From Cochliopodium minus (Eukaryota > Discosea > Himatismenida > Cochliopodiidae), in the NCBI GenBank assembly GCA_024220525.1, contig JAMYWO010000417.1, positions 1 to 29,121 on the forward strand: a stretch of DNA of 29,121 nt, in the 5' to 3' direction. Under the pieces are notes generated by a model. That model saw nothing but the letters and a program-made list of their open reading frames with translations. It was not told the DNA's origin and made no database searches. Within the stretch, counting starts at the first letter, position 1. Each line of letters opens with the position of its first letter. This document shows positions 2,113 through 26,101 of this stretch, in pieces. The position numbers were made by a program, and so were the translations under genes.

Positions 2113-4383
2113 TTATTTAAATTGTTTCATTTTATGTTCTTTGACAAAAACTTTCCCATCTCCTATATGAACTACTGCAAAAGCATGGACGGCTTTTACT
2201 TGCAATTGTTTTCCGAAAATATCATCAGAATTGTCAGCAATGGTGCGGATGTACATTGTCAACTGATTGTAAGCTGCCTGAACAACATCATTAATAGTGA
2301 TGCAAACTTTAGGATTTGGATCCTCAAATCCTCCCTCATCATATTTGATAACAAGACCTTTTTGGGCAAAAACAATGCTATTCATGAAATCTTGATGATT
2401 GATTTCGAGAATCTGTCGAATTCTCTTCAATTCAATCAACACAACATGCTTTGGAGAAGAAAGAGCGACCATGTCAGGTCTCTTTAAGCATGAATTTGAT
2501 ATTTCTTTGTCAAATTTGAAATCGGTCGTCTTTGCTTCATAAAGAAACTCGACACACTTTTCTAAGATGATCGAAATAGCATTTTCCTTGTCGGATTCTT
2601 CTATTTTGGTTTGAGAAGTTTGAAAAATGAATTCAAAAAAATTCTCAGCAGAACGTTGTGAAGGATGTTGAAGGAAATGGGAAAGTTTCTGAGAGGGAGT
2701 TTGAAAATCAATGAGTCCCATCAACCTTTCAAAAAAAATGGAATGGATGTATTTGTTGGGAATTTTCAAATAAACATTTCCATTATTAAGAATTTCGTCA
2801 ATCGTAGCCAAACCTGATTGAAACAATAACTGACAAATTGTGGTGTTAATAATTTTTTTGCTTTTATTTCCTTCATCCAAATTCCCAAATTCTATTTCTT
2901 TGATCAACCAATTTCTTTTCATGGTGAATTCATTGTAATGTTTGCCAGAACTTTTGAAAAGAAGAGAAGAAACGATTTCACTAGATTGTTCCCTGAACAA
3001 CTTCATAAATTCCACTATTTTTGAAGAGGGCAGCGCATTTATGTCATTAACCACATCCAAGATTGTCTCCATTGTGTTCTCATCCCAAACTATTTTTCTA
3101 AAATCATAGTTGTTTTCTTTCATCAAATCTTTCACCTCTTCCAATCTATTACCTGAGATAGAAAAATTAGTTAAAAAATTAAGAAACAAATAAAAAAAAT
3201 CAAATAAAAATAATTATAAATAAATAAAATAAAATAAAATATAAATTAAAATCTAATTAAATAAAAATAAATATAAATAAATAAACAAAAAAAAATTTTT
3301 TTTTACCTCCAAAATATTTGGCCAAAAAACCAATGCAAAGAATAGGATTGAAGATTGGACCAGCACCGCTATTAAGCTCATTATGTTTTTTATCAAAGCA
3401 GTACCCATTAAAGAAAAAAGACATGAAGAGGAGAAGAAAGGCATCTTCTTTCTTCGTGATTTCGTTTTCGCCGGTTAATTTTCTTGCTTCTTTCAGTGCA
3501 AATTCCAAGTCAACAAGATTCAAGCCATTAGTCGATATAACAATATCTTCATTAGTTATAGATTGACACATATTGAAGATTGAGAAATCAGGCAAGGAGG
3601 TTGTGAAAATTCCTGCGATGATGACGGAGATGCCTGGTTTATTCGCCAAACTTTTGAAACAAGAAGCGAACTTGCTAATTTTCTTTTTCAATGGATCAAC
3701 AGAAGACAAACTTTCTTTAAAGTTGGAGAGAGAAGTGAGATTGGAAAGAACATTCCTCGTCAAATGAGAATCAAATTCGTCGATCATCAAAAAAAACTTC
3801 CCTTTTTTCACATTGTAAACATATTCAACAATCTTTTTTAAAGATTTATTGGGAGAATTAATATTGAGTTGGTCGATGATATCTAATTTATAATCTTTAC
3901 AAAAAAGTTCAAAATGATAGTGCATATCTATTTCAAACGTTTCAAAACTTATCGAAGCAAAGTCCAAAGCCAAAACGTGATAATTAGTAACATGTTGCTT
4001 CATGTCTTCATCCAACGCAATTTTTTCTGCTTTCAATCCGGAGAAAAGTCTTTTGAAAGGTTCACCTCTATTTGATACATCAACAAATTCTTTTAAAACA
4101 CTCATCCTCAACGTTTTCCCTTCAAAGTTTATAAAAAATCATAAAAAATTTATTTAAAATAATAAAATTTTTTTAAAAATAGATAATAATTAAAGTTTTA
4201 GATACCTATTCTTGGAATACCAAAATAACTCATTGCTTTGTAACCTTTTGACAAGATCTTTACAAAATCTGTTTTGTCTGCATAAAAATTATTTTCTTTT
4301 TTGATCAATTCAAACTCTGGGCCACTGTACAGACGAGCAAAAATTCTTCCTGCTTCTTCTTTATCTCTGAGCTTTGTGTTCAT
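2113..4383 (-). CDS. AAA-ATPase-like + PD-(D/E)XK nuclease-like protein (bacterial-type family)
   Basis: Predicted 676 aa from exons 4206-4383, 3307-4119 and 2113-3152. It has the two-part layout of the AAA-ATPase-like (PF09820) plus PD-(D/E)XK (PF08011) family, abundant in bacteria and seen in some fungi and protists. Seen: the family's N-terminal ENNFYADKTDFVKIL segment, P-loop PRIGKTLRMSVL (about 57-68, where bacterial members read PRRFGKT), hydrophobic Walker-B-like FFLMIDEFD (about 168-176), and near the C-terminus RPDMVAL...VVLIELK (D557, E571, K573), which fits the D-(D/E)xK nuclease core, followed by AYNQL. Both active sites look intact. Intron 1 splits the P-loop just before GKT. The molecular role of the family is unproven; ATP-dependent nucleic-acid processing is the usual inference. 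The start is the ATG at 4383; no in-frame stop was seen just upstream, so a short extension cannot be excluded. Confidence 0.85.
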
Positions 4384-9602: not shown

Positions 9603-12600
9603 TTAATTTTGAATAACTTGATAACCACTTTTGTTTTTTATCTTCCTTAAGATGCAAATAAAAGTAAGAAAAATTAGGGCAAACAAAAGAGTTGCACCCA
9701 CACCAACCAAAATCCAAACCCAGTACTTCAAATGAGGGGATTCTCCCACACAAAGAACCTTTTGGCCAGCAATACTGCAATTTTGACAATTAAAATTAGG
9801 AAGAACAGAATTGTAAATACCAACCATCGAATGATAACAATAAACAGATTGAAAAGATTCATTACTGAATTTTACGCCTGACAAACTAAGAGTGGTATTG
9901 TTAAAATAATACGCAGCTCCTTGTTTAGCGGAGTTTTTTTCAAAAAAATCATGGAAGAAAGAGTTGCCCGTGATGTTCCCTTGCAAAAATATAGCCCCTC
10001 CATTTTTCCCTGCTTTGTTCTCAATGTATCTTGTGGAGAACGAATTGGTCTGTATAGATGACCAGATTGCTCCTCCATCGAAAACTGCTTCTGTTTGTGA
10101 TATAGAGCTGCTTGTAATAGAAATAGATGCTGAAAATAAAAAATTTTTTTAAAATTTTTTTTAAAAAAAAAGTGAATTAATTTTTAATTCATTTTTTAAA
10201 ATTATAGGAAAATAAAAATAAATAATTAGATGTGCAAAATTTATAACTTTGTATGGACATTAATTTATTGGTAACAATTTTTGAGTTGTTATGGTAAAAT
10301 TTTAGAAATGTCCAAATTTTACAACTTTGTTAGCGGATATTATATTTTTACTAACAAAATTTAAACTGTTGTAATATTTTTGGACATCCCTAGTAAAATT
10401 TTGAAAATCTCTAATTAAATCAATAATGAAAATTTCCAAAATTTTGTTAACGGATATTAATTTACAACTTTATTTTATGAAAAAATTTAATGTAAAAGGA
10501 AAAACTAAAAAAATTTTCCTTTGTTTTAATTTTAGTGTTTGAATAAAATTAATTTTTTTTAATTAAATTGATTTTGATTTTGATTTTTTTGTTTTTTTTT
10601 GTTTTTACCTTGTGTTGAATCAAAAACATAAAAAGCACCTCCATAAGAAGCTCTTCCTTCAGTGGCAGAGGAAACGAAGAACTGGGTCATTCCTTTTTGA
10701 ATATAAGCCAATCCTCCGTTGAGGGCAGAGAACTTGGTAAAGTTGCTGAATTGAATCTGGAAATAAGAATGCATTGACCTAACTACTCCCCCAAATGGTG
10801 CTGATCCTTGAGTTTGATTAACTTTTTTTTAATTAAAAAAATAAATAAAAATTAAAATTAAAATAATTTAAAATAAAAGAAAATTAATTGAAAAAATAAG
10901 AATAAATTAAAATAAAAATTTGAAGTAAAAATAAATAAATAAAATTAATTAAAATAAAAATTTGAAATAAAAATAATAAATAAATAAAATTTTAAAATTT
11001 GAAACAATAATTACAAATCAATCAAATTATAAATTAAAAAAAAATTAAAATTAAAATTAAAATAAAAATTAATTTAAAAAATAAACCAATTTTTTCAATT
11101 TTAACAAAAAATTTTTTACCATAATTCAAATACAAACAAGAATTTTCAACGTAAAAAGAACCACCAGAAACTCCTGCTTTATTATTTAAAAGAGAAGAAT
11201 AATCTACTTCGTAGGCAGAATTGTTCGCAAAGCCTATACCTCCACTCACAGATGCAGAATTGTTCGAGAAAAATGTGTTATTAAACAAATTTTTTTGGTA
11301 TGTTAAATCTGACTAACAAAAAAGAAATATTAAATTGAAAAATTGATTTCACAAATAAGAAAAATTGATTTCACAAAAAAAAAATTTTTTACATAAAAAA
11401 CACCTCCGTTTAGAACAGCAGAATTATTTGTGTATTTAGAAAAAGAAGATGAAACAGATTTAAGACCTTGTATAAAATAGACACCTCCGTTACCTTCTGC
11501 GGAATTGTCAGAGTAAGTGTCCGAAACGATTTCGAACGTGGAGATTTTGTTTGAAGCAATTAAATATATTACTCCTCCATCTGAACTTACAGTGTTGAGA
11601 TTGTATTTGTTGTTTTTCGAAACTAATGTTAAAGGAATTCCTGGAATTACCAATGAAAAAGCAGAACCTTCATTTTTTTTTTTAAAAAATAATAAAAAAA
11701 TAAAAAAAAACGAAAAAAAAGATAATAATTAATAGATTAAATGGTAAATTTTCTTTTACCTTTCGAAGCACGATTTTTTTCGAAATTGGAGTTATATACT
11801 TCAATAAAGTGCTGTGAAGGGGAAAGACATGTAATATTTGATTCAAATAAGGAGATGGCAGGTCCATTGAGTCCTGTAAACAAGCTTGTATTGACATAAA
11901 TGTTAATGGGGCACTATAAAGATTTTTTTTTTAAATAAAATTAAAAATAAATAAAATTAAATTAAGATTAAAATTAAAATTAAAATTAAAATTAAAATTA
12001 AAATTAAAATAAAAATGAAAACAAAAAATAAAAATAAAAATAAAAAAAAAATTATAACTTGATTGACGAATCCAAACAAAGGAGTATCATTGGGTAAATT
12101 ATTTGTAGTAAATTTAGTTCCATTGATATTTAAAACGAGATTGCTTTTGACAAAAAGATCACTCTCAAAAGGAACAGAAGAGATTATACCAAAAATGCAG
12201 CTATTAAAGTTGACATTGAAAACTTTTGATGAACTAGAAGATTGAAGAGAAAACAATGTAGGACTTGTTACTTTTGAATTCATTGTTATATCTTGAAAGT
12301 ATATGTTTGTATCTGTTGATTCTATTAAATGCGTTGCGTTTTGGATGTTGTTCGACAAGTTGGAATTAGTTAAGAAAATTCCATTTTTTGCTTGGTTGTA
12401 CGTTGGGGTATTGTAGTTGTTGATTCTTATGTAAGGTGTTTCCGAAAGAGAAATTGTTTGAAAATTGAAATTGTTCATCAACAAATATCCTTATTTTTTT
12501 AAAAAAGGGATTTTCAATTTAAAATTTTTTTAAAAAATTTTTTTTTTTTTGAAATTTTATTCTCCTCACCTTGTTCTTCAAGATTTATGAAGGAATTTTC

Positions 12601-13164
12601 TCCATTTATTATTATATTCTTTGCAGTTGTTCCAATTATTGATATTGTAAGATTATATCCATTTATAAAGGATCCATCCACTTCAAGATTTTCGGAAAAG
12701 ATCACATTTTGGAGTACCAAAGTATTTCCAATTGAATTGAAGTTGAAAAGATGAGTATTGAAAGAACCACCTCCCAAATCCTGATTATTGAATTTAATTG
12801 TTGATTCATTTGAAGAAATTAGAAAAGAATTCGCCTTTATCGAAAAATCCTTGAAATTTAAGGTTGAATTGAAAGAAATAACAAATCCATTCTCTGCTGC
12901 AAGTATGGCTGAATTCCCAATCGAAGAATTCAAATTCAAGATTTTATTATTTACAAATAAAGGTTGATTAAAAGTTAAATTGGATTGAATGATGATATTT
13001 GCTTGTTCATAGAGATCTATTGAGTATTGGAGAGATGCACATGGTTGTTGAATGGTTCCACATCCCACTGTATCATTTCCATTTTGAGATACAAAAACAT
13101 CTTCAACACAGAAAATTTCAATTATCAATATCAAAAAGAAAAACATTAACTTATTTGTCTTCAT
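9603..13164 (-). CDS. Beta-helix surface protein A, type I membrane (Pmp-like GG[AV]xY repeats)
   Basis: Predicted 795 aa. Exons: 12570-13164, 12059-12489, 11760-11913, 11393-11667, 11120-11312, 10609-10821, 9603-10129. It has a signal peptide (MKTNKLMFFFLILIIEIFC), then DVFVSQNGNDTVGCGTIQQP, the opening of pectin-lyase-fold/DUF1565-like surface proteins. About eleven repeats follow with the GG[AVIS][IVF][YF] core preceded by NNS/DNSA (for example SDGGVIYL, GNGGVYFI, VSGGSFYV, DGGAIWS), like the repeats of chlamydial polymorphic membrane proteins and protist beta-helix proteins. A Cys-rich juxtamembrane piece (FNCQNCS), one TM helix and a short basic tail with GYQVIQ (a YxxPhi-type motif) end the protein. 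It is rich in N-glycosylation sequons. The exon 6 acceptor was chosen at 10822/10823 by comparison with paralogue B; another five codons inside also works. A cell-surface adhesion or recognition role is inference. Confidence 0.85.
10227..10413 (-). mobile_element. Older TIR element copy, split by a nested insertion
   Basis: Outer element in the last intron of surface gene A, made of 10227-10302 plus 10402-10413. Its left end TAGATGTGCAAAATTTATAA and right end (reverse complement TAGAGATTTTCAAAATTT) match the element at 8010-8098 in opposite orientation. It is interrupted at GTAAAATTT by a second copy. Its own target duplication is no longer clear. Confidence 0.7.
10303..10392 (-). mobile_element. 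90-bp TIR element (MITE) nested in an older copy, perfect 9-bp TSD
   Basis: Ends are TAGAAATGTCCAAA and the reverse complement of TAGGGATGTCCAAAA, flanked exactly by GTAAAATTT on both sides (10294-10302 and 10393-10401). Internally it shares TTTGTTAGCGGATATTA with the element at 8010-8098, reversed. It lies in the last intron of surface gene A. Confidence 0.87.
10432..10476 (-). mobile_element. Degraded fragment of the same TIR element
   Basis: TTTCCAAAATTTTGTTAACG followed by GATATTAATTTACAAC matches the internal part of the two fuller copies, with short deletions and no ends. It lies in the same intron as the nested pair. Confidence 0.6.
11957..12015. repeat. Hexamer microsatellite (AAAATT)n
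   Basis: About eight copies of a six-base unit in the intron between exons 2 and 3 of surface gene A. Confidence 0.85.
12415..13091 (-). repeat. Near-identical duplicated block, copy in surface gene A
   Basis: This block matches 15695-16371 at a constant offset of 3280. Between 12455 and 13034 I read no difference over 580 bases, including the whole first intron. Only isolated changes occur at the borders (near 12434, 12454 and 13035). Confidence 0.9.
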
Positions 13165-13216
13165 TTTTCTTTAATTTAATATTTTATATTTTATATTTTA
13201 ATATTTTATTTTTATT

Positions 13217-13260
13217 AAATTTTAAAACTTTGATTTTTCCAAAGAACTTTCAAATTATTA
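13217..13260 (-). promoter_or_regulatory. Conserved upstream element of surface gene A
   Basis: TTTTAAAACTTTGATTTTTC and then AAAGAACTTTCAAA, read on the plus strand, lie about 55-95 bases upstream of the start of gene A. They are closely matched at 16490-16531, the same distance upstream of gene B. Either shared promoter sequence or simply the edge of the duplicated block. Confidence 0.45.
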
Positions 13261-13347
13261 AATGGAAAAAAATATTCCAAAAAAAAAACTTTTGATAAAA
13301 ACTTTAAAAAACCAATTAATTTGATAAGATTCTATTTAAAAGTAGTT

Positions 13348-16300
13348 TTAATAACTTTGAATGGTCTCATAACCTCTGTTTTTCTTACGATAAACAAAGA
13401 CAGAAACAGAAATAATGATTACAAACAAGAGAGAAAATCCTGCAACCAAAATCCAAACCCAAAAAGGTAGAGGAGGTTTAACAACAGCACAAACAACAGC
13501 TTGACCAGTAAAACTACAATTTTGACAGTTGAAAGAAGGGATGACAGATGAACTGACATCAACTTTGGAATGATTACAATAAACAGATTGAAAAGTGGTG
13601 TTGATCAAATTTTCTTGGTTCAAACTTGCGGTGACATTGTTAAAATAAAACGCACCTCCTTGTTTAGCGAAATTTTTTTCAAAGTAATCAAGACTGAATC
13701 TGTTTGATTTGGAGTTCTGTACATAAATAGCTCCTCCCAATCTCCCCGCTATTAAAAAAATTAATTTTTGAATAAATTAATTTGAAAAAAATTAAAAAAA
13801 AAAAATTAAAAAAATTTTTAACCTTTGTTTTCTGTATAATTACTTCCACCAGAATTTATAGGAACTTCTGACCAAATAGCTCCTCCATCATAATGAGCAG
13901 AAGTATTTAAGAAAGAACTGGATGAAACCAAAAAGTCAGTATCTACAATAAAAAATAAAAAAATAAAAAAAATAAAAAAAAAATAATTTTAAAAATTAAT
14001 TGAAATTATAAATTAAAATTTTTTTTTTACAATAGATTTTTTCAATATAAAATGCTCCTCCAAAAGAAGCATATGAGTTTTTTGCTGAAGAATAACAAAA
14101 AATGATGGTGGTAGGGCCACTTTCAACATAAGCGATTCCCCCTTTTATTGCAGTCGAATCGGAGAAATTGCTGTTGTTGATATCCAAGTAGGAATATTTT
14201 GAATAGATAATCCCTCCGAGCATTGCAGATCCCTTTTTCAGATTGGCTTCAAAGATAATTTAATAAAAAAGAAAATTAAATAAAATAAAAAGAATTTCTT
14301 TAAAAAATTTTTTAAAATTATTTGAAAAATAAATAATGAAAAAAAAAAAAATTCTTACAATTTTTGAAAAACAAACAAGAGAATGCAGTATAAAAATGAC
14401 CACCTAATAATGAAGCAACATTATTTTCTGAGAGAGAGTTTTCAATGCTGTATACAGAACCGTTGGCGTAGACTACACCCCCACTTAGCGAAGCATAATT
14501 GTTAATGAACGTAGTTCCATCTAATGTTCCTTTTCCGACTGTATTGTGAGACTAAAATAAAAAAATTTGAAATAAAAAATTTGAAAAAAAAATCAAAAAA
14601 TAAAAAATTGGAAATAAAAAATTTGAAATTAAAAATTTGAAATAAAAAAAAATACAAAAAAAAAAAAAAAATTACATAAATAACACCTCCATTCTGATTA
14701 GCGGAGTTATTGTAAAAAGTAGAAAGGGAAGAAGAAACAGATTTGACTCCTTTAACATAAAACACACCTCCATTACCTCCCGCGCGATTGTTTTGGAATA
14801 AATCAGAAACACTCAAAAAGGTAACAGAAGAAGTGGAGGAATTGATGTAGACGACACCTCCATCCGTGCTTACAGAATTGTTAAAGTAATCATTTTGGTA
14901 AGACATGATTGAGAGGAGTATGTCCATAGGTAAATCAAGCATAAAAGCGGTTCCTTTAATTAAAATTTTGAATTAAAAAATTTGAAATAAAATAATGGAA
15001 TTTAAAAAATAAAAAAAAAAATAAAAAAAATAAAAAAAATAAATCAATTTTTTAAAATCCAATATAAAAAAGAATTTCAAGTAAGAATTATAAAAAAACA
15101 TTTGGAAAGTAAAAAACCTTTTGAAGCACTTAAATGATAAAAACGAGATTTAGTTATGTTAATATTGTTGGGTCCTTGAAATTCACAGATGGTATTTTCG
15201 GAAGGAAACAAAGAGATAGCTGGACCTTTGAGCCCACTGAAAACACAAGAACTAACAAAAATATTGACGGGACACCTAAAAAAAAAAATAGAAAAAAAAT
15301 GAAAATAAAAAAAAATTGAAAAAAAATTTAAAAAAATTTTTTTGAAGCTACCAATTAACGAATCCAAGCAATGGAATGTCATCAGGCAAGATTGGATTTG
15401 TAAAGTTGGTTTCTGTCAAGTTTAAAAGGGACTTGCTGTTCGCAAAGAGACTAGTTTCAAAAGGAACAGTGGTGATCGAATCGAAAGTTATACGAGAAAA
15501 GAAAATCTCTATTTGATGAATGGTCATGTATGTCGACTTGAATGAAAACAGAGAAGGTTTTGAAACTTGGTTGTTCACTGTTAAGTTTTGGAGATTTATG
15601 TTCGTGTTGTTGGATTCTATTAGATGTGTCACGTTTAGAATGTTTTTCATGTCGCTGTTTGATATGGAGACGATGTTGTCCAAAGTATCAGGGTTTGCGT
15701 TGATTCTTATGTATGGTGTTTCCGAAAGAGAAATTGTTTGAAATTTGAAATTGTTCATCAACAAATATCCTTATTTTTTTAAAAAAGGGATTTTCAATTT
15801 AAAATTTTTTTAAAAAATTTTTTTTTTTTTGAAATTTTATTCTCCTCACCTTGTTCTTCAAGATTTATGAAGGAATTTTCTCCATTTATTATTATATTCT
15901 TTGCAGTTGTTCCAATTATTGATATTGTAAGATTATATCCATTTATAAAGGATCCATCCACTTCAAGATTTTCGGAAAAGATCACATTTTGGAGTACCAA
16001 AGTATTTCCAATTGAATTGAAGTTGAAAAGATGAGTATTGAAAGAACCACCTCCCAAATCCTGATTATTGAATTTAATTGTTGATTCATTTGAAGAAATT
16101 AGAAAAGAATTCGCCTTTATCGAAAAATCCTTGAAATTTAAGGTTGAATTGAAAGAAATAACAAATCCATTCTCTGCTGCAAGTATGGCTGAATTCCCAA
16201 TCGAAGAATTCAAATTCAAGATTTTATTATTTACAAATAAAGGTTGATTAAAAGTTAAATTGGATTGAATGATGATATTTGCTTGTTCATAGAGATCTAT

Positions 16301-16444
16301 TGAGTATTGGAGAGTTGCACATGGTTGTTGAATGGTTCCACATCCCACTGTATCATTTCCATTTTGAGATACAAAAACATCAACACAAAAAATTTCAATC
16401 ATCAATATCAAAAAGAATAACAACTTTAACTTTTTTGTCTTCAT
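13348..16444 (-). CDS. Beta-helix surface protein B, type I membrane (paralogue of A)
   Basis: Predicted 792 aa. Exons: 15850-16444, 15352-15769, 15118-15275, 14676-14953, 14359-14551, 14031-14246, 13823-13942, 13348-13748. Same architecture as its downstream neighbour A: signal peptide, DVFVSQNGNDTVGCGTIQQP start, about eleven GG-x-[IVF]-[YF] repeats (TDGGVVYI, GNGGVFYV, LSGGVVYA, DGGAIWS, LGGAIYV), juxtamembrane FNCQNCSFTGQ, TM helix and tail RKKNRGYETIQSY. Exon 1 is almost identical to that of A, while exons 2 onwards have drifted to roughly half identity by eye. B carries an extra phase-1 intron (13749-13822) that splits the ENK-AG site where A is continuous. Two donors are unusual for the window (GTTTT after exon 3, GTTAA after exon 7). 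The surface role is inferred from architecture. Confidence 0.85.
15695..16371 (-). repeat. Near-identical duplicated block, copy in surface gene B
   Basis: Partner of 12415-13091. It covers the start of exon 2, all of intron 1 and most of exon 1. The signal-peptide codons just beyond it differ by several substitutions and small indels. Confidence 0.9.
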
Positions 16445-16847
16445 TTTTTTTTTATTTTTTTTATTTTTCTAATTCTTAAATTTAATATATTTTAAAACTT
16501 TGATTTTTTCAAAAGAACTTTCAAAATATTTACAAGAAAACAATTTATCCAGTGAAGGAATCATTATTTTACAATAAAAACTTGATAAAATATTTAAAAA
16601 TCGTTGACTGGTCTTTAAAACTTTGACTATCTTACTTTCAAATGGAATTAAAAAAAATGGTGAAGTGATAAATAATTAAAAAAATAAAACTAATGACCAC
16701 TGTGCAAAAGGATGGAAAAAGGATAATTTAGAGAAGAACTTGTACGGAAAGTCATAATATTGGTGTCAAAATAAAATTTCAACCTATTTTTTTTGTAAAG
16801 ATAAAATAAAAAAAATAAGAGAAAATTAATTAAATATAAATAAAAAA
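16445..16847. other. Divergent intergenic region between surface gene B and the ankyrin gene
   Basis: 403 bases that must carry both promoters, since the flanking genes point away from each other. Apart from the repeated TTAAAACTTTGA...CTTTCAAA motif on the gene B side I see nothing recognisable. Confidence 0.6.
16490..16531 (-). promoter_or_regulatory. Conserved upstream element of surface gene B
   Basis: Matches the element upstream of gene A. A looser second copy (TTAAAACTTTGACT then ACTTTCAAA) lies at about 16614-16645, which A lacks. Function is unknown. Confidence 0.4.
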
Positions 16848-21600: not shown

Positions 21601-24304
21601 TTTTATTTTTTTTTGTTTTTTTTATTTTATTGAAAATTTTTTTTAATTTTATTTTTATTAAAGATTTTTTTGTTATTTTTTTTTATTTTATAAATCTTTT
21701 TTTATTATTTTTTTACCTTCAGTGTCTAAAGCACCATCTATCTTCTCGAGGATAGTAGTACAATACTCAATAACTTCGTAGTCAAGATAAGTTGGCTCCA
21801 ATTCTTCTGCGGTGATGAGTTTTCCCTTCTCGTTGGTGGCCTGTCCCAACTCTGCGGTAGGAGGACGTCTTTTGAGGTATTTTTTGAGGTTGTTACAAAT
21901 GTTTTGTAAATCCACCAACTCTTTGTCTTTCTTGTTAACCTTTTCAGAAATAAAAAAAAACAAAAAAAAATTTTAAATAACACAACATAAAATAAATGAG
22001 AAACTACTAAAATAAAAAACAAAAATTTAATTTACTAAATAATTAAGTATAAATCTTAAATTAAAAGTTAAACAAAAAAAAATTAAAAATCATAAAAATA
22101 ATAAACAAATGTAATTAAAAAAATTGAGTAAATTAAATTTAAAATAACTTTAATTTATAAAAATAAAAAACATAAAACATAAAAAATAAAAATAATAAAA
22201 TTAAAAAGAATAGGAAATTAATTTAAATAATTAATTTTGGGTAAAAAAAAAAAAAGGGGGATTACCGAAACAGGTTTAACTTTTTGTCCTCTTTTGGGAG
22301 TGTTGTTCTTTTCTTTGTTCTCTTCCTCTTCATTGTAGTCAGATTCCAACTTAAGGCCGAGTTGATCTCTTTTGAATTTGTAGAGCAACTCTCTTTTTTC
22401 CTCTGTGTCCTCCACTTTTTCTGTGTCTGAGTTATCTTCTTCTTTGTTCTCTGTTGTCCCCTTCTCTAAGCTATTATTTTTAAAAAAAGAACATTTTTAA
22501 AAAATGAGAATAATAAATTAAATAAATTAAATTAAATTAAAAATAAAATATTCATAATTACAATTGAAACAAATTGATTAAAAAAGTAATAAAAATGAAA
22601 TTTATGAAAAAAAAAAAATAAATAATACAAAATAACAAATACGTAAGATTTGATAATCTAAATAATACTTAAAAAAATATGATTTAATTTTAAATAGATT
22701 TTATGATAAAACAAAAAAATTATGAATTATAATTAATGAATATTTTATGAAAAAAAAAAAACTAAATAATAATAAAGGAAATTAAAACTGACCCTTGACT
22801 GATCTCTTGTTCAGTTTTTTTCCTAAACTCGAAAGTGGTGTCTGTGAGAGAAGTGATGAAAAGATAAACAGGAGCGCCGGTATCGACCCACTTTCCCTTG
22901 GAAGGAGCATAGATGCCGTACTCTTCAAAACTTTCCGCCTTGGAAGGGAAATGTTTGACGCACTCCTCAAAGATGTTGGAGATCTCCACTTTCTCCTTTG
23001 CAAAATAAATTGTCTTTTTGGCGGACTCTTCCACGTAGTGCACTATAATGGCGAATGTTGTTACATTGGTGTGTTCCACTGCATTTATTACATCCTATTG
23101 TTAAATAACAAAATGATTATTACATTTAGATTGATGATCATTATTATTAAATAGATATTCCGAAATGGAGAATTAAAATGTGGATGTTCAACTTTGTTCA
23201 GAGGATAAATTAATTTCCGAATCAAAAGAAATGATTTATTATTTAAAAAAAAAAAATTTCAAAGAGGAGGAACTATGAAAAATTTTAATTTCTTTTTTGA
23301 CAAATAAAATTCTAAGATAAAAGAAAGATAATCAAGATAAATGATGTTTCATACAGATTGATTAATTATAATTAGTTAAATTTTGAATTTTATAATCCTT
23401 TGATATTATTCCCAAATCACAATTTGATTTTTTTTTCAAAAAATTGGAATGTTACCTTCTCGAATACATTATCATTCAAGAGGATAGGATTAGATTGAGA
23501 ATCTTTGAACAGTGCATTCTCCCATTTCACAGCCATGAACTGAGGATGTTGAAGTCTCAATAAAAAGAGTAATCCCTCCAAAATGGTTGTTTTATACACT
23601 TTAATCTTTGCTGAAAATTCTTCTTTATTTGTAAATGTGAAATTAGTTGTGATCTCTTTGCTTTCTGGGAGTTGATTGGGTGGTAATAGTTCTAATTCAA
23701 GCTATAAAAGGGAATCATTTTAAGAATTTGAAGATCAAAGATGAATAAACAAAAAATTTAATTTTAATACAAGAAATTTGAGAGAAATTAAAAAATATAT
23801 AAAATTTTATTGAAGGATAAATAAAATAAAATATATTATTTAGATCTTCGTTGCAAAATTTTTTTTTATCAATTTTTATAAAATGGTTGAATAATAGATT
23901 TTGAATATCGATCGATTATCATTGTATTCTATCAAATTAAAAATATATATATTTTTTTTTACTTCATTATCTTTTGTTTTGAGATTCTTCAATTGAAAAT
24001 ATGGAGTGAGGACAACACCATGTGATGGATGAAACATTATATAGTCATTATGATTATCCAATGGTGATAATTTTCTCAATTCATTCACTGTCATCTGATT
24101 TGGCAACATATATTCTTTGGTAACATTTTCCTCAGATATAATCTTCACTGTGGTCTTTATATCTCTTTCTTTTTGCATATTATTTGTATTATTCAAAGGC
24201 ATTGAAGTGGTGATGTTGCTGGGTGGGGTAGAAGTAGATACAGAATTGGTATCTTTTTTATCCTTGTCATTCTTTTTTCCAAATCCTGAAAATATTTTCT
24301 TCAT
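18695..24304 (-). CDS. RhoGAP-domain protein (Rho-family GTPase-activating protein)
   Basis: Predicted 772 aa from 12 exons: 23963-24304, 23456-23701, 22793-23094, 22266-22470, 21717-21939, 21223-21409, 20784-20907, 20357-20500, 19627-19738, 19355-19476, 18920-19128, 18695-18797. The RhoGAP domain spans about 400-590: EGIYRISGDS with the arginine finger (R443), ITGALKLYLRELKDPLIPF, KMNYENVSIVFGPTTMRP and MMDNPLKCQVV. It should switch off Rho/Rac GTPases controlling actin. The N-terminal 300 residues contain two or three ubiquitin/RBD-like stretches (EYMLPNQMTVNELRKLSPL; EGLLFLLRLQHPQFMAVKW; EYGIYAPSKGKWVDTG) that I cannot assign. Between them and the GAP lies a Glu/Lys-rich linker. The tail is Lys/Ser/Glu-rich (KKTNQKKGSNND) with a further small helical unit (FLNKYDEDPKAFSKYV). 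Exon 10 could end at an in-frame stop after KKKVK, but exons 11-12 continue in phase, so splicing is preferred. Introns longer than 300 nt are plain AT-rich sequence. Confidence 0.88.
19891..20340. repeat. Direct duplication inside RhoGAP intron 8
   Basis: About 190 bases from 19891 recur from about 20150 with many small changes. Shared blocks are AATAAGGAAATTAAAAAATC and AAAATCAAAAATAAAAAAAA followed by TTAAATCAAAAAAT in the same order. It accounts for much of the 618-nt length of this intron. Confidence 0.7.
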
Positions 24305-24609: not shown

Positions 24610-26101
24610 TTAATCACAATAATAATGATACTTTTTAAGACTGTTCCAAAGTGAAAGAAAATTAGTGGTACTACTAGAAATGTCACACAAATAATGATTA
24701 ACGAAAGGTCTTTCCTGGGGTTCGAGAAAAGAAATGATATACTTTATAACAGATTCACAATCATTTTTTCCTTCATAATTCTTGAAATAATCACTGAAAG
24801 GATACAACTTCAAATTTTTGGAAAACGAAGAATGGTTGTCCAAAAATAGAATGAAGGTAGTATTCTGAAAAAAGTTATGTTGTTTTAGAGATTTCAAATT
24901 AGTTAATTCAAAGTAAAGTTCATTATCTTTGAAGTCCTTATTACTATGTAGAAAAGAGAGTAAATAAAAGCAAAGTCTACGAGGTAAATATGTTTTGTTG
25001 TTGATTTTGAAAACTTTCATCACCATCAAAAAAATGAACGAATATTGAAGGTAGTTCTCCTTGTAATATCTCTTGTAGTCATTCAAATCTATTACATAAA
25101 TTATTTGGTTGATATTCTCGAAGAAGTAATAATAGGGTCTACTCAGATAATTTAAAGAGCTTATTAATTCGTTATTCTTTTTGAAATGGAAATCTTCAAC
25201 ATGCTTAGGATTCTTCTTTAGATTAACATAGTCTAATTCCGTCGGTGCATAGTCTTCTGCCAATATTACATCCATTCTTTCAATGAAATATAAACTTTTC
25301 TCGTTTATTTCTTCTTCGTGGATGAGTTTTAGAAAAAGATCTTCCATTTTTTCTTTAAAAAAATGTTTCAATTTTTGTATTGATTCTTTCTTTATTTTGA
25401 ATTTGTTTTCTTTTTCATTCAAAATATCACCTATTACATATTTGGATTCTGTATCAACCATTGAACTTGAAAAAGCTATTCTCAGAATGTTTATCAATAT
25501 TTCTTGTATCTTCTCTTTACAAACTTCTAAATGTTCTGCTAATTCTTTATTTCCTGAAATTATTTTCTAACAATAAAGATAACCCATGTTAATAAGAATA
25601 TTTAAAAAAAAATTTTTACAACTTGTTCTACAACCGGATTCCTTGAAGGACCTCTTCCAAGTATCACAGAATGAAGTTTACTTTCTGTTTTTTTCAAATA
25701 ATTTGACTCTATTTCCTTCGATTTTTTTGTCTGCTTTTTATTTTCTTTTGAAAAGATGAATTTTAATTTTTAAATAATAAAAAATCTTCTGTTGTATAGA
25801 GAATAAGAAATAGATGATCTATTCATCATGATGTTGATATATCTATTTTTATTATACCTATAATATTTCCTAAATACTTATTCTCTTTAGATTTATTCTT
25901 TTTTGAAGAAAAGATTTTGGAGAATCCTGTTAATGGTGCTTTGAAATCTCCTCCCACAAAATGGTCTTCTTCTTGGAATTCACGACAAAAAGATATTAAT
26001 TCATTGCAAACGAAAGATATAGGTTCAAATGATTCCACTCTTTTAAATTCATCCTCCAAATCTTTTATTTCCATCAATAAATCTCCTAATATCTTTTTCA
26101 T
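24610..26101 (-). CDS. Divergent Galpha-like protein lacking GTP-binding motifs
   Basis: Predicted 441 aa. Exons: 25858-26101, 25620-25744, 24610-25566. Homology to heterotrimeric G-protein alpha subunits shows in YFIERMDVILAEDYAPTELD (about 216-235; Galpha YFLDNLDRI..DYVPTEQD), FENINQIIYVIDLNDY (about 272-287; Galpha FENVTSIIFVVALSDY), NTTFILFLDN (about 358-367; Galpha NTSIILFLNK), YEGKNDCESVIKYI and the C-terminal helix. The nucleotide motifs are gone: the P-loop GxGESGKST reads GRGPSRNP (111-118), the switch I RxxTTG region reads LKKNPKHV, DVGGQ is absent, NKxD is LDNHSS, and TCAT is CDISSS. The first 100 residues are an unrecognised helical extension, basic just before the P-loop position. 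Exon 2 could end three bases earlier (CAA then GTTGTA); GTAAAA was preferred. The neighbouring RhoGAP gene lies on the same strand. It may act as a signalling scaffold or decoy (inference). The frame is open throughout, so it does not look like a pseudogene. Confidence 0.75.

Follow-up and report, generated by a model that had tools for sequence, protein, structure and literature searches.

A predicted fusion of a G-gamma-like domain to a G-alpha fold lacking guanine-nucleotide motifs in Cochliopodium minus

The stretch of DNA analysed here, hereafter the window, comprises the 29,121 nucleotides of Cochliopodium minus contig JAMYWO010000417.1, which is contig C412 of the 598 contigs (44.65 Mb) in the assembly that was searched. 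The genome is AT-rich and carries spliceosomal introns. On the minus strand of the window, positions 26101-24610 hold a predicted three-exon gene of 441 codons plus a stop codon (Table 1), the product of which begins with MKKIL and ends with HYYCD. Downstream of this gene and on the same strand lie a small frame with no Pfam match (23876-24304) and another with a weak match to FERM_f0 (22762-23079; E 0.0012, below the cut-off). The minus strand also carries a series of tandem, partly near-identical genes with Chlamydia PMP-like repeats (9603-16468; Chlam_PMP E 0.0063, below the cut-off), as well as an AAA-ATPase_like frame (43.2 bits, E 5.1e-11) with a second frame after it that has no Pfam match (2113-4138 for the two).

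Table 1. Features of the predicted fusion gene, in the order of its coding strand
Feature	Positions	Strand	Basis or details
Exon 1: G-gamma-like (GGL) domain and beginning of basic linker	25858..26101	(-)	gene model, PF00631 match
PF00631-matched stretch, profile positions 7-49 of 69	25946..26080	(-)	genome search, 27.2 bits, E 1.6e-4
Intron 1	25745..25857	(-)	113 nt, GTATAA..AAAAG, phase 1
Exon 2: G-alpha domain segment with alpha-N helix region, beta-1 and P-loop remnant	25620..25744	(-)	gene model
P-loop remnant GRGPSRNP	25635..25658	(-)	motif comparison
Intron 2	25567..25619	(-)	53 nt, GTAAAA..GTTAG, phase 0
Exon 3: remainder of pseudo-G-alpha domain, including stop codon	24610..25566	(-)	PF00503 62.8 bits, E 4.1e-17
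Switch III insert (FLMVMKVF..LPRRLCFYLL), common to the relatives on C48 and C5	24937..25041	(-)	sequence comparison

The start codon is most naturally supplied by exon 1, because the reading frame of exon 2 contains no ATG and no GT donor occurs from position 25831 to 25745. For comparison, 49 introns were collected from canonical G-alpha genes of the same genome (12 of the 14 canonical loci, with L019 and L027 omitted). Their donors read GTAA in 41 of 49 cases and GTAT in three, their acceptors are TAG (30), AAG (12) or CAG (7), and their lengths range from 55 to 501 nucleotides. Our gene modelling is supported by three of the 14 canonical models (L020, L021 and L025), which are identical over their full length to the EukProt proteins P0007, P0008 and P0013, respectively. 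These identities show that C. minus, or a very near relative, is represented among the proteins searched. An earlier, sequence-only reading of this locus had described a long open frame. The absence of stops holds true, but the coding region is divided among three exons rather than forming one frame, and the P-loop remnant resides in exon 2.

The same reading had proposed the fold of a heterotrimeric G-protein alpha subunit, and the profile search bears this out. The Pfam G-alpha profile PF00503 matches residues 89-425 of the spliced model with 70.4 bits, above its curated cut-off of 48.8 bits, and the match spans profile positions 3-323 of 333. The locus scores 59.5 bits with this profile in a six-frame search of the genome, and a phmmer search of the PDB finds 190 different sequences with E values of 0.001 or less, the best 60 of which are G-alphas or G-alpha chimeras. 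An AF2 model of exon 3 is poor (pLDDT 61, pTM 0.45). When it was submitted to Foldseek, the 50 matches listed, with E values from 3.7e-6 to 1e-4, were G-alpha entries or complexes of receptors with G proteins; their TM-scores of approximately 0.25-0.30 are low because of the poor model.

Comparison with 14 canonical G-alphas of the same genome reveals that all five nucleotide motifs (G1-G5) are changed, in agreement with the loss that had been read from the sequence. The P-loop GAGESGKST has become GRGPS-RNP, the R..TTG of switch I reads NLKKNPKH, DVGGQ (switch II) is absent, NKxD is replaced by LDNHSS, and TCAT by YLCDISSST. The canonical proteins retain the five motifs with small variants only, which affect switch I in L023 and L027 and TCAT in L014, L017, L025, L027 and L029. 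The sequence comparisons support a G-alpha-family protein that lacks every one of the five guanine-nucleotide motifs. This gene is not alone in its genome in having lost motifs: 11 of the 25 G-alpha models compared (the window gene counted) are divergent, and several of these retain some motifs. L036 and L037, which are Arf-like and yield no coherent G-alpha alignment, were left out of the motif table and of the trees. Judging from the models, the genome holds many motif-poor G-alphas.

Both ends of the window protein also depart from what is expected for a receptor-coupled subunit. Its C-terminus is about seven residues shorter than that of its canonical relative L025, such that the full receptor-contact tail is missing, and its start lacks the MG acylation signal. 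The shortened C-terminus lowers the probability that this copy acts as a receptor decoy, a role that had been suggested earlier, and the two features together make receptor coupling by the predicted protein appear unlikely.

Ahead of the G-alpha domain, a helical extension of about 100 residues had been noted as a novelty. Helices are indeed predicted, as a single-sequence AF2 model of exon 1 (mean pLDDT 59) consists of two helices, at residues 2-20 and 26-44, and a loop. However, we rejected the notion of an extension of unknown kind, since exon 1 matches the G-gamma/GGL profile PF00631 (curated cut-off 27.1 bits), with 27.7 bits for the 91-aa frame and 28.1 bits (E 2e-6) for a 75-aa piece. 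Within the whole 441-aa model, the match scores 26.1 bits, just under the cut-off. The N-terminal part of about 80 residues matches G-gamma only, and a Pfam search with the spliced model at E values up to 10 recovers PF00503 and PF00631 only, with no RGS domain. The CaaX prenylation motif of G-gamma subunits is missing, the domain being internal to a protein that ends elsewhere.

Direct comparison of exon 1 with human G-gamma2 reveals weak similarity (shuffle p 0.01). An hhalign alignment is in register with P 0.044, and equally good results arise in 17-31 of 1000 shuffles. Neither phmmer with exon 1 alone nor a two-sequence profile finds a G-gamma in the PDB, and Pfam detects no G-gamma in the N-terminal piece of a relative on contig C48. 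These results would suit an ordinary helical hairpin that happens to resemble G-gamma, in which case the gene would encode a pseudo-G-alpha on its own, preceded by an unrelated extension. We consider this quite improbable given the E value of the PF00631 match, the fact that G-gamma is the best Pfam match in three members of the family on contig C13, and the nature of the fusion partner, which is a G-alpha. When a profile built from three fusion proteins was compared with 353 PDB sequences, the engineered G-gamma2-G-alpha chimera 9xhh_C ranked first (175.4 bits versus 172.2 for the next), with an alignment that passes through the second helix of G-gamma2. Another engineered chimera, 24xz_G, ranked 17th (171.2 bits).

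The six-frame genome search gave one PF00631 match at window exon 1 and missed the intron-split pieces on C13. No convincing free G-gamma was found in the genome, an absence that is weak because the same search overlooked the C13 pieces and because, according to extracts of PMC12716839, G-gamma detection fails in nearly half of choanoflagellates. Among candidate partners, one canonical G-beta stands out, on C38 (536.6 bits); a 2046-aa WD40 frame on C22 exceeds the G-beta cut-off only as summed pieces.

Five further divergent G-alphas in the genome carry a G-gamma-like piece at the same place, namely those on C48 (L026) and C5 (L033, the weakest case) and three tandem genes on C13 (L035, and two copies in L062 at C13:141500-151400). 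In the C48 gene, a helical exon is followed by an exon with ESFEDTISLHNSIDFCIELIEFTLKNQDNDPFV and then by the G-alpha part. The alignment between the N-termini of the C48 and window proteins spans 76 columns and contains a single gap, a result equalled in one of 2000 shuffles, and the C48 protein retains a longer C-terminal tail than the window protein. The layout on C5 is similar, with a decayed G-gamma piece (shuffle p 0.007 against C48 and 0.46 against the window). Both of these relatives keep the P-loop lysine and NHKD and have lost DVGGQ and the switch I threonine. On C13, the G-gamma matches score 16.9, 19.1 and 21.6 bits, all below the cut-off of 27.1, and cover profile positions 6-50, 16-59 and 7-49. 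With the G-alpha profile, L062b scores 45.6 bits and the partial L035 model 29.4, both below 48.8. By eye, the P-loop of the L062 copies reads GGNKTCKK, and FTDLSK replaces NKxD.

Other G-alphas of the genome were inspected upstream of beta-1 for the same architecture. Ordinary starts precede beta-1 in the canonical loci L014, L016, L018 and L027 and in the divergent loci L022c, L030, L031 and L034, with an MG start in six of these eight. A G-gamma-tail pattern searched on both strands of 24 loci matches L026 and L035 only, and was made after these two had been seen. The divergent G-alphas L022 (C5:224000-232000), L030, L031, L032 and L034, three of which are in tandem on C5, have some nucleotide motifs changed and no G-gamma piece was seen in them.

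The window protein shares a switch III insert with its C48 and C5 relatives. A SOCS box, suspected by look, was rejected: PF07525 gave no match in the genome, and the peptides of the three inserts have no Pfam match. The insert may be a small module that is mobile between protein families. SPRY proteins on C589 (L050-L055; E 0.12 from the C48 query) have look-alikes of its LPRRLxxYLL core in their tails, and C1:126961-127071 is grouped with these and the window insert.

Selection could be gauged from the two close C13 copies. Over G-alpha exons C, D and F (278 codons; the totals exclude exon B as well as exon E, which has the same sequence in the two copies), dN is 0.126 and dS is 0.499, which yields a ratio of 0.253 (bootstrap range 0.173-0.376, with none of 1000 replicates at or above 1). 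The first G-gamma exon (41 codons) gives 0.256. These two tandem relatives are under purifying selection, and their ratio of about 0.25 points to selection on the family. As a separate observation, the identity of exon E in the L062 copies, where neighbouring exons differ at dS 0.36-0.68, suggests gene conversion.

The window gene itself evolves rapidly. Its protein is about 25% identical to its nearest relative in the genome, and its branch is very long in all trees (3.6-9.0 changes per column). GC content at third codon positions is 0.29, compared with 0.40 and 0.41 in two other G-alphas of the genome, which may indicate weak expression or relaxed constraint. Moreover, searches of the protein collection with the full window model and with a three-member alignment returned no match at E ≤ 1e-3, in a collection that does hold proteins identical to three of the canonical models. 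These searches scored the 7,996 and 7,998 candidates with the most words in common, a procedure that excludes a near-identical protein of fitting length and leaves room for distant relatives. Such observations are what might be seen for a gene in decay (a pseudogene in progress) or for two adjacent genes read as one. However, simulated substitution drift to the identity level of the window protein left, on average, 22 stops for every 310 codons, and none of the 40 runs had fewer than 14, whereas the window gene has none in 441 codons, which supports the earlier argument from the open frame. Exon 2 lacks a start codon, the order of parts is repeated on C48 and C13, and the relatives show the constrained ratio given above. 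Decay or misjoined neighbours is accordingly an improbable account of the locus.

Phylogenetic trees provide no firm placement of the window protein. In the first tree, from which P0003 was left out, it stands apart from the C48 and C5 proteins. In the second, which omits P0003, L035, L034, L031, L030, L032, L022a and L022b (long rows), it joins C48 and C5 weakly (70/12). It is not joined with them in the third, where a single clade of all six fusion candidates is not rejected (p-AU 0.41).

The reading that we favour, to which we assign about an even chance, is that the gene encodes a natural single-chain G-gamma/pseudo-G-alpha protein, the G-gamma domain of which would bind G-beta and so keep a nucleotide-blind G-alpha fold in place beside it. 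The predicted chain would run from an N-terminal G-gamma domain through a short basic linker to a G-alpha fold without a guanine-nucleotide site. Its basis is two profile matches and their order, the loss of G1-G5, five relatives with a like architecture (one of them weak) and purifying selection on two of these. The fast evolution of the window gene, the lost switch II, the weak similarity to G-gamma2 and the lack of a match in the collection all count against it. In known trimers, the C-terminus of G-gamma and the N-terminus of G-alpha are close together at the membrane.

Under this arrangement, the fused G-gamma would pair with the canonical G-beta on C38 and fix the pseudo-G-alpha alongside. 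Because the pseudo-G-alpha would be unable to load GTP, GTP could not release it from G-beta. A permanently assembled, nucleotide-blind heterotrimer might then withhold G-beta from the canonical G-alphas or, alternatively, a platform anchored on G-beta could be built on the fused chain. The window protein is thus probably a fixed cap or platform rather than a switch, and it is more likely to act at G-beta than as a receptor decoy. The fused domain may also substitute for the free G-gamma that was not found. A broader proposal, which we hold tentatively and with less than even confidence, is that a selected family keeps G-beta in inseparable, nucleotide-independent trimers and acts as a G-beta-gamma buffer or antagonist, with some members linked to other machinery through the switch III insert.

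Switch II is a main G-beta contact of G-alpha, and its loss makes a second arrangement a serious rival. In this case, the G-gamma part would bind G-beta as in R7 RGS proteins, and the pseudo-G-alpha would be a new interaction or effector domain positioned off the G-alpha face. The insert common to three members, with its likeness to SPRY protein tails, is also in keeping with such a scaffold. Retention of an alpha-N-like stretch in the window and C48 proteins (by eye) and of the overall G-alpha profile match argues against it, and little else separates it from the capped trimer. We regard the scaffold as unlikely, though it deserves consideration.

Several known systems share parts of this architecture. 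R7 RGS proteins, whose GGL domain pairs with G-beta5, are likewise larger signalling proteins that contain a G-gamma-like domain, but they possess an RGS domain, for which the window protein has no match up to E 10. PseudoGTPases are proteins with a GTPase fold and degraded motifs. They and some G-alphas of Dictyostelium and Naegleria resemble the window protein in this respect. Extracts of PMC8584482 describe motif-deviant G-alphas in Dictyostelium, Naegleria and plants, and mention no G-gamma fusion for those of the first two. The plant XLG proteins place a G-alpha-like domain behind an N-terminal extension, as does the window protein, and are reported in the same extracts to bind GTP very poorly and to function without nucleotide (PMC8584482). 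However, their extension is cysteine-rich with nuclear signals, a half that the window protein lacks, and they use separate G-gamma subunits, with no G-gamma domain mentioned in these extracts (PMC8584482).

No natural G-gamma-G-alpha fusion was found in the open-licence full-text literature, with subscription papers mostly outside that scope, and none appears in extracts of PMC9283941, PMC12716839 and PMC10762035. The closest parallels are engineered. A laboratory fusion of G-gamma2 to G-alpha-s has the same order, according to extracts of PMC10762035, and the one-chain order G-gamma-linker-G-alpha recurs in the fusions used for GPCR structures (9xhh_C, 8xgr_G and 24xz_G). These constructs are man-made and keep the G-alpha fold and family motifs largely intact, whereas the window protein is natural and has lost its nucleotide motifs. 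If the favoured reading is true, a selected natural fusion with a nucleotide-blind G-alpha would constitute a trimer impossible for GTP to open, and would offer a test case for how a G-alpha fold functions without GTP, a question posed by the plant XLGs. The window fusion would then represent a natural counterpart of the laboratory G-gamma-G-alpha chimeras.
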